The translations under genes were made by a program, and so were the position numbers. Below are positions 24,033-25,742 of a stretch of DNA of 64,000 nt, piece by piece. The notes beneath the pieces are model-generated. The model saw only the letters and a program-made list of their open reading frames with translations. It had not been told where the DNA came from and searched no databases. The stretch's first letter is position 1. The number at the start of each line of letters is the position of its first letter. Location: NCBI GenBank assembly GCA_022072055.1, contig JAJVIK010000006.1, forward strand, positions 186,001-250,000. Direction: 5' to 3'. This DNA comes from a bacterium. Its GTDB lineage: Bacteria > Hinthialibacterota > Hinthialibacteria > OLB16.

Positions 24033-25742
24033 CTATTCCCGTGGGGTTGTCTCTCCCTGCGCCGCCGCGGTCCCCTCGGTCTCGGGCTTATCGAGTCGCA
24101 CCAAAAGGCGCTCTTCAACGGTCCCACCCTCGAAGTGAACGAGAATCTGTGTCTGGTCCTGAATCAGGTTGTACAGTCCGGTCTCGGCGAGAGGATAGGA
24201 TTTCCCCACGGGCCTCCACACCGCGCGCGATGATTTCGTGTCAACGGACCCTTCAACCGGAACGGTGGTGTCGGTTGTGGTGTTTTGAAACATCCCCGCG
24301 ATGACACCCGTTTGGCTGACTGTCAGTTGGAGGGACATTGTGGTTTCGGGGGCTTCTTCATCCACAATGGTAAACACTCCCAGCGGCATCCATTGCAGTT
24401 CCTCCGAGGCCTCCTGAGGGACAGCCTGGGCTTGATTGACAAGCTCCTGGGTGTAGGTCTCGGCGGGAACCTGCCGGCTGCCGTTTAGGATGATCGTGTC
24501 TCCCTCGACATAGACCGTGCCCCCGGAGCCGTAGGTGTAATAAACCGGCTGAGGTGTCAGCACGCTCCCCACGAAGGCCCCCACCGCCGCCCACGTGGCG
24601 GGGCAGGACCACCAGTCGCAATCGTGACAATGGTCATAGTAAGGGTAATAGGGGTGGTGGTGAAAATGATACCAATCGTCATCATACCACCCGCCGACAT
24701 AATAATGGTTGTGGTACTCGTTGTGCCACTCGTTGCGGATATTGTCGCCTTGTTCCTGCCAGTTGTTCCATCGGTCCCCCCAATCGGCGGGAAGCTGTTC
24801 GGGGCGGTCCGCACGGCGATCTTCGCGCCGTTGGACCCCTTCGCGATCCGCGCCAGGCCGCTCCCCATCTCTTAGCCCCTCTCCCGGCCTGTTGGCGGGA
24901 AGCTGAGAAATCCCGGCGCCTGCGGCTGCGCCAAGACCAGCGCCTCCCCCCGCACCCAACCTGCCTCCGTCCCCTGCGGGTCGAGTCGCGATTCCAGCCT
25001 CTCCTCCCGGACGCGTACCGGGAAGCTGAGAGGGTCTCGCTGGGGCCTGCCCCACCCCGGGTCCGCCCGGTCGAGTGGCCGGAAGCCGGCTCGGCGCACC
25101 CGGCTGCGCCCCCTGACCTCCCTGAAGGAAATTCGCCAGATCCGCTTGGCTGGGCCGTCCGCCTCCCTGGACCGGATAGGTCCCGGGAGCGGTTGGATAG
25201 GCGGGCCTTGTCGTTGGGCGCTGGGTGAAATCGCGCTGAGGAATCTGGCCGGGAGCTTGCGCCATCCGGTCATAGGAACCTGAGGGTCGTGTCGAAGGGA
25301 GCTGGCTCGGGTAACCCCCTCCTCCGGGGCGTTGCACGCCCGATGGGTAGTTCGACCGAGAGGGCTGAGAGGGCCGAGTTGACGGTCCGGATGAGGCTCT
25401 TGCGCCATCAAACGAAGACCTGCTGCTGTAGCCTCCTGAAGGGCGACTGGCGGGTCGGCTTGCTCCCCCACCCCCCCCCCCGGGCGCCCCCCCCCCAAGC
25501 CTTCCTCCGCCCCCCCCCCCACCCCCCCCCCCCCCCCCCCCCCCCCCCCCCCCCCCCCCGCGGGCGCCTCCACCCGCATGCATGCTGCCGCCGCCCCCCC
25601 GACCTCCTCCACCGCCTCGTCCACCGCCCCCGCCCCCTCGTCCGCCGCCCCCGCGCGCTTCCGCGAGCTCGGGTGGAAGACACAAAGCCGCCGTTGCCAG
25701 AATCAAGACAAGGATGGAAAAGACCTTCTTAATCCTCTTCAT
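24033..25742 (-). CDS. Gly-rich secreted protein with homopolymer tract
   Basis: This is a 569-residue protein with a signal peptide (KKVFSILVLILATAAL). Residues about 29-110 are nearly all Gly with Arg, Ala and Ser; about 110-290 are Pro/Ser/Arg/Gly repeats with a recurring R-P-S/G-Q-L-P-x-T/N-R-P motif. A segment extremely rich in His, Tyr, Trp and Asp follows (such as WYDDDWYHFHHHPYYPYYDH). Next come CPATWAAVGAFVGSVL, a hydrophobic piece, and a compact C-terminal domain of about 150 residues. Related proteins are loosely annotated as mu-protocadherin-like surface proteins. A metal-binding or adhesive surface role is inferred. The Gly codons include an uninterrupted G38 tract. It is last of three minus-strand genes. 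Confidence 0.65.
   Translation of the reverse strand: MKRIKKVFSILVLILATAALCLPPELAEARGGGGRGGGGGGRGGGGGRGGGGSMHAGGGARGGGGGGGGGGGGGGGGGGGRLGGGAPGGGGGGASRPASRPSGGYSSRSSFDGARASSGPSTRPSQPSRSNYPSGVQRPGGGGYPSQLPSTRPSGSYDRMAQAPGQIPQRDFTQRPTTRPAYPTAPGTYPVQGGGRPSQADLANFLQGGQGAQPGAPSRLPATRPGGPGVGQAPARPSQLPGTRPGGEAGIATRPAGDGGRLGAGGGAGLGAAAGAGISQLPANRPGEGLRDGERPGADREGVQRREDRRADRPEQLPADWGDRWNNWQEQGDNIRNEWHNEYHNHYYVGGWYDDDWYHFHHHPYYPYYDHCHDCDWWSCPATWAAVGAFVGSVLTPQPVYYTYGSGGTVYVEGDTIILNGSRQVPAETYTQELVNQAQAVPQEASEELQWMPLGVFTIVDEEAPETTMSLQLTVSQTGVIAGMFQNTTTDTTVPVEGSVDTKSSRAVWRPVGKSYPLAETGLYNLIQDQTQILVHFEGGTVEERLLVRLDKPETEGTAAAQGETTPRE
25522..25559. repeat. 38-nt cytosine homopolymer inside the Gly-rich gene
   Basis: Bases 25522-25559 are all C on the plus strand (G on the coding strand), with a further C run up to 25520 split off by one A at 25521. 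It encodes poly-Gly and is in frame as assembled. Its length makes it prone to slippage, and also to assembly error. Confidence 0.9.

Follow-up and report, generated by a model that had tools for sequence, protein, structure and literature searches.

A 38-nt G tract in the gene of a glycine-rich bacterial protein: slippage-grown repeat or assembly artefact?

We wanted to know whether an uninterrupted run of 38 G residues within a bacterial gene is a real repeat, possibly even a switch, or whether it was created by sequencing or assembly. The run lies in a stretch of DNA of 64,000 nt, which was analysed as a whole and is further called the window; its features are collected in Table 1. The original prediction placed the tract in a coding region, where it should encode poly-Gly, and both statements held. 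The length was confirmed by exact count, and the open reading frame that contains the tract has an ortholog aligning on both sides of it in the tract's own frame. The tract starts at nucleotide 184 of the ORF, in phase 0, and its 38 nt form 12 GGG codons and the first two bases of a GGT codon. ORFs overlapping in other frames (e.g. 25289-25732 on the plus strand, with poly-Pro) were set aside, because it is the minus-strand ORF that has the ortholog.

Table 1. Positions in the window of the G tract, its surroundings and the gene that carries it
Feature	Position	Strand	Basis and remarks
G38 homopolymer	25522-25559	minus (C38 on plus)	exact count in the sequence; codons 62-74 of the 569-aa ORF
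Degenerate poly-G stretch, 95 nt	25465-25559	minus	TRF; C at 82 of the 95 plus-strand positions
Inverted repeat GCGGGTG-GAGG-CGCCCGC (coding strand), contains GGC	25560-25577	minus	fold prediction and sequence
569-aa ORF, Gly-rich, with a Pro/Arg-rich segment and a conserved C-terminal part	24033-25742	minus	no match in Pfam and NCBIfam searches
Signal-peptide-like N-terminus, residues 1-30	25653-25742	minus	by eye; partly conserved in the ortholog
Gly/Arg-rich linker with mixed codons, codons 31-60, 5' of the tract	25563-25652	minus	sequence
C-terminal part with homologs in G001 (OLB16), G149 and G286	24039-24815	minus	second half predicted to be mostly beta-strand, with modest confidence
Upstream neighbour with SnoaL-like (NTF2-type) domain	25775-26668	minus	Pfam

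The kind of tract is ordinary, but its length is extreme. Within the degenerate stretch the tract is followed by runs of G11 (25510-25520), G10 (25487-25496) and G11 (25471-25481), separated by short interruptions, and the runs of 38, 11, 10 and 11 all lie inside one span of 89 nt. In the whole genome (5,858,224 bases in 32 contigs) this is the only run of G or C of at least 14; a G14 pattern was found at 25 overlapping places, all of them at the tract, as expected of one run of 38. Runs of at least 9 were found 39 times, four of them in the 89-nt span, and the other 35 reach at most 11. An order-1 Markov estimate made from the window, tract included, gives approximately 4e-12 runs of at least 38 per genome. 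For runs of at least 9 an order-1 Markov model made from the window predicted approximately 324, so the 39 observed are about eight times rarer.

The tract is located at position 211,522 of the 291,821 of contig 7, which is 80 kb from the nearer contig end, and the window contains no N's. Directly 5' of it stands an inverted repeat of 7 pairs, one of them G-T, a context that could favour slippage or sequencing error. The tract region showed no excess of RNA structure (z = -0.72), the short hairpin next to the tract excepted.

Further, we analysed the product of the gene. It consists of a signal-like N-terminus, a Gly/Arg-rich linker, a Pro/Arg-rich segment, a segment rich in aromatic residues and His, and the conserved C-terminal part. 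The protein is probably secreted, as predicted from the N-terminus recognised by eye, and no surface anchor was identified in it. One of the five family members gave a weak match to DUF2884 (E = 0.0063). The fold of the C-terminal part, modelled from five sequences, had a mean pLDDT of 62.9; its best Foldseek hit was rhizavidin (E = 3.7e-3), followed mainly by lipocalin- and avidin-type barrels with worse E-values, and the fold was not used as a clue to function. The search of plasmids with the protein (tblastn) returned no match. The scan of positions 23900-26000 for promoters and terminators was uninformative: it gave one promoter-like site on the plus strand (0.4 expected) and one terminator-like site on the minus strand (1.8 expected).

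Relatives of the protein are few. The collections that we used hold one genome per species, and among 61 genomes, its own included, a relative was present only in Candidatus Hinthialibacteria bacterium OLB16 (LMZT01000163.1), which belongs to another genus; the two proteins share 62% identity over the C-terminal half, and the OLB16 frame has 504 aa. This ortholog is, by eye, also preceded upstream by a protein resembling the SnoaL-like neighbour. PMC11382960 lists the phylum under the name Candidatus Hinthialibacterota (GTDB p_OLB16). When 290 genomes were searched with a profile, three more remote members came up, distributed over the genomes G149 and G286. These two genomes may belong to Planctomycetota. 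The N-terminal parts are Gly-rich in 4/4 homologs (L010, L207, L208 and L209), and this unnamed family has the architecture of the window protein, with a signal-like N-terminus, a Gly-rich part and conserved C-terminal motifs. In these four homologs G runs reach at most 5-6, while the window gene has its run of 38.

We compared the linkers of the window protein and its ortholog, using the motifs AEAR and RSSFD, present in both, as landmarks. Between them lie 78 residues in the window protein and 48 in the OLB16 protein, which makes 30 extra residues, or 90 nt, and this excess is close in size to the 95-nt poly-G stretch. The OLB16 linker is built of mixed Gly codons, with no G run above 6. Therefore we estimate that about 90 nt of poly-G are extra, either in the lineage or in the assembly. 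A shorter linker with mixed Gly codons is the state of the ortholog, that is, of another genus and not of reads from the same organism. Among the 14 genomes of the class, the tract-bearing one is the only genome with a G run of at least 20.

Gly codon usage changes at the tract. On its 5' side (codons 29-60) 4 of 22 Gly codons are GGG, while in codons 61-98 the number is 22 of 28. GGG accounts for 264/774 in 12 further window ORFs, a set selected by length that includes unconfirmed genes. Therefore the poly-G stretch is a discrete addition and not the codon habit of the gene. We also found 20 other GGN arrays in the genome. All 20 are free of G runs above 8 and have mixed third bases (G in 18/140), which argues against a general conversion of GGN arrays to G in this assembly.

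The original prediction further stated that the tract would slip readily and could switch the protein on and off. We computed the products of changed tract lengths. With 36 or 39 nt the product would have 110 or 111 aa, and with 37 or 40 nt it would have 289 or 290 aa; in both cases the conserved C-terminal part is lost. Changes of 3 nt keep the frame, so that four of the six length changes from -3 to +3 truncate the 569-aa product. The tract lies within the first 15% of the gene. Truncation after a slip of 1-2 nt is thus borne out by arithmetic, while use as an on/off device found no support, the nearest ortholog having G runs of at most 6.

We consider it slightly favoured over an artefact (probability of roughly 0.52) that the tract is a real, slippage-grown and unstable repeat whose length is uncertain. 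A mononucleotide repeat would have grown by replication slippage inside the array of GGN (Gly) codons of a secreted Gly-rich protein, in the lineage of the tract. The 95-nt stretch would be one poly-G repeat, the 3' part of which was broken by point changes, with the pure G38 as its youngest part. In this way about 30 residues would have been added to the poly-Gly linker that connects the signal peptide to the conserved C-terminal part; such a linker would be flexible and its extra length tolerated. Slips of three bases would change it by one Gly each, and other slips would truncate the protein, which may be off in some cells as a by-product. If the tract is highly unstable, 38 would be one allele, or the choice of the assembler, from a spread of lengths, and if it is real, populations should hold truncated variants.

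Several observations favour a real tract. The frame through it joins N- and C-terminal parts that both align to one ortholog, although a kept frame would have a 1/3 chance at an arbitrary length and would follow of necessity if the only error were bases wrongly called G. Four G runs cluster in 89 nt, and the linker excess corresponds in size to the whole degenerate stretch. The homologs are Gly-rich N-terminally, the tract is far from a contig end and from any N's, and both the other GGN arrays and the 22 Gly codons 5' of the tract were called as mixed. Slippage should produce a continuum of lengths, and it is odd in this respect that no run of intermediate length stands between 11 and 38. Altogether, a real tract, with a length that is uncertain, is modestly favoured.

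The strongest alternative, which we regard as possible and somewhat less probable, is that the true sequence is a mixed-codon or shorter Gly linker and that signal loss or context-specific miscalling made the G run. We surveyed long G runs elsewhere. Runs of at least 30 were found in 22/386 genomes of a sample of relatives and in 55/392 genomes of the phylum of G149. Briefly, we examined loci from 20 of the 22 genomes (one per genome, the window tract included) and 30 from the 55. Of these 50 bacterial loci, 38 lie at most 1 kb from a contig end, 2 stand beside N's and 10 are internal, the window tract among them. Among viral contigs the run was at most 250 nt from the end of the locus in 74/80 G38 loci, among the matches listed; the viral sample comprised at least 120 stretches, of which the count of distances to locus ends took 80 and the polarity test 120. 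We infer from the position at contig ends that many runs of at least 30 are read or assembly artefacts, and real tracts may also break contigs. For our tract, the misassembly or miscounting that the original prediction allowed for is thus a serious alternative, although the frame is kept and the contig ends are far away.

An artefact may also arise in the middle of a contig. At locus L038 (1501-1530) a G30 run together with a copied 8-mer, AGGGCTTC, 38 nt in all, splits an otherwise good frame, which we take to be RarA-like. We regard it as a probable artefact of a public assembly, with poly-G inserted in mid-contig. In two-colour chemistry, lost signal is read as G, so that a read whose signal stays lost ends in poly-G, as described in PMC13218037, and miscalls after GGC and inverted repeats are reported in PMC3622629. 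The window tract resembles such two-colour Illumina artefacts and context miscalls in that degenerate G-rich sequence comes after a pure G run and the surroundings are rich in GGN, with an inverted repeat, containing GGC, directly before the run. Moreover, G38 is a single outlier in the genome, the ortholog has mixed Gly codons, and the Gly codons just 3' of the tract are biased towards GGG (10/15 compared with 264/774 elsewhere, p = 0.01).

Other observations set the tract apart from these cases. Most of the examined runs are at contig ends, while the tract is mid-contig, beside neither an end nor a gap, and keeps the frame; miscalling without indels would keep the frame too. No word of at least 7 bases, with at least 3 different letters, was found to occur both in the 40 nt preceding the run and in the 60 nt following it, unlike at L038. 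One copy of G and C only was seen, GGCGCCCG, 80 nt apart, and its collapse would break the frame. Poly-G caused by signal loss reaches the read end, hence it would not be expected to recover into correct sequence as it does here. GGN arrays elsewhere in the genome were called normally, and this argues against a general miscalling of GGN as GGG. Finally, an artefact of signal loss should enrich G in the sequence 3' of the run. We did not observe such polarity, either in bacterial runs (8 versus 6 of 14, the window tract included) or in viral runs (13 versus 23 of 36, among the matches listed).

We consider it unlikely that the tract is a selected contingency locus, where slipping would benefit the cell by switching a surface protein between on and off states or by adjusting its linker. 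Poly-G/C switches are known in Campylobacter and Neisseria according to PMC4965091 and PMC4085013. The tract resembles those of Campylobacter jejuni and Neisseria meningitidis as a pure in-frame homopolymer near the 5' end of the gene of a predicted secreted protein, where indels of one or two units would, by computation, switch the product off. The differences concern length, number and conservation. Contingency tracts in these two sources span about 7-13 nt, while this one has 38 nt; those of meningococci are over-represented near 9 nt, and lengths of 5-13 nt were modelled and tested (PMC4085013). For C. jejuni NCTC11168, PMC4965091 gives 29 loci with tracts of seven or more, whereas here we found a single run of at least 14 in the genome. 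In the 99 prokaryote genomes surveyed in PMC2831843, coding genes generally show no over-representation of tracts longer than 7. The tract is missing from the ortholog, only 1 of 14 class genomes has a run of at least 20, and the predicted protein has no identified surface anchor, all of which argue against a selected switch. Our literature search for poly-Gly or poly-G tracts in bacteria gave, by title, only silk and neurodegeneration topics.

Closer analogues came from the survey itself. At L047 (918-1928, minus strand) a C40 run lies in frame, where its 13 Pro separate YadA head repeats from collagen repeats and a YadA anchor follows downstream (Pfam), and it is a candidate long poly-C contingency linker. 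At L040 (301-1848, plus strand) a C35 run in frame encodes poly-Pro, with a Big_5 domain on its 5' side (Pfam). Both share with the window tract a pure G/C run of 35-40 nt in a low-complexity linker of a probably extracytoplasmic protein, within one open frame, and by analogy they would favour a real tract; the C40 of the YadA-type protein could also be read in favour of a switch. L047 has Pfam domains on both sides of its run, whereas in L040 the domain is on the 5' side only. They differ from our tract in that the proteins are unrelated, come from other genomes and carry poly-Pro, not poly-Gly, and those tracts are likewise candidates only.

Loss of mismatch repair as the cause of the tract found no support: the genome has two matches to MutS-family genes and so gives no sign of a repair-deficient lineage, which counts against a slippage-grown tract.

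On present evidence the tract is a minor curiosity. It is improbable, in our opinion, that a variable poly-G of 38 nt or longer forms a hypermutable linker-and-switch, in which three-base slips retune the linker, other slips silence the gene and every population is mixed. If this were true, the C35 of L040 and the C40 of L047 would belong with it to a broader group of extracytoplasmic proteins that have very long G/C contingency linkers, and assemblies would mostly lose such tracts at contig ends. A real tract would in any case probe the upper length limit of poly-G maintained in bacterial coding sequence, and to our knowledge there is no cultured model for its phylum. The length of such a tract would exceed that of the meningococcal tracts of PMC4085013 roughly three- to fourfold. 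An artefact, in turn, would be a warning that mid-contig poly-G can keep an ORF open and give rise to false poly-Gly proteins.

We also recorded the surroundings of the gene. Beyond the SnoaL-like neighbour, a 750-aa protein is encoded at 26702-28954 (minus strand), with no Pfam match above the cut-off; it has two relatives in the OLB16 genome, on other contigs (47% and 34%), and none in the other 12 of the 14 class genomes. On the plus strand, a Glyco_hydro_106 (alpha-L-rhamnosidase) protein at 19831-22830 overlaps by 4 nt with a URO-D-like gene at 22827-23957, the match of which is just under the Pfam cut-off. A 577-aa protein at 18035-19768 (plus strand) matches Thy1 (thymidylate synthase complementing protein) in two stretches. 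Further away, at 7857-8141, a 143-bp unit is present in two tandem copies that match at 95%; the repeat starts 7 nt after the ORF at 6852-7850 and extends into the start of the ORF at 8018-8920.
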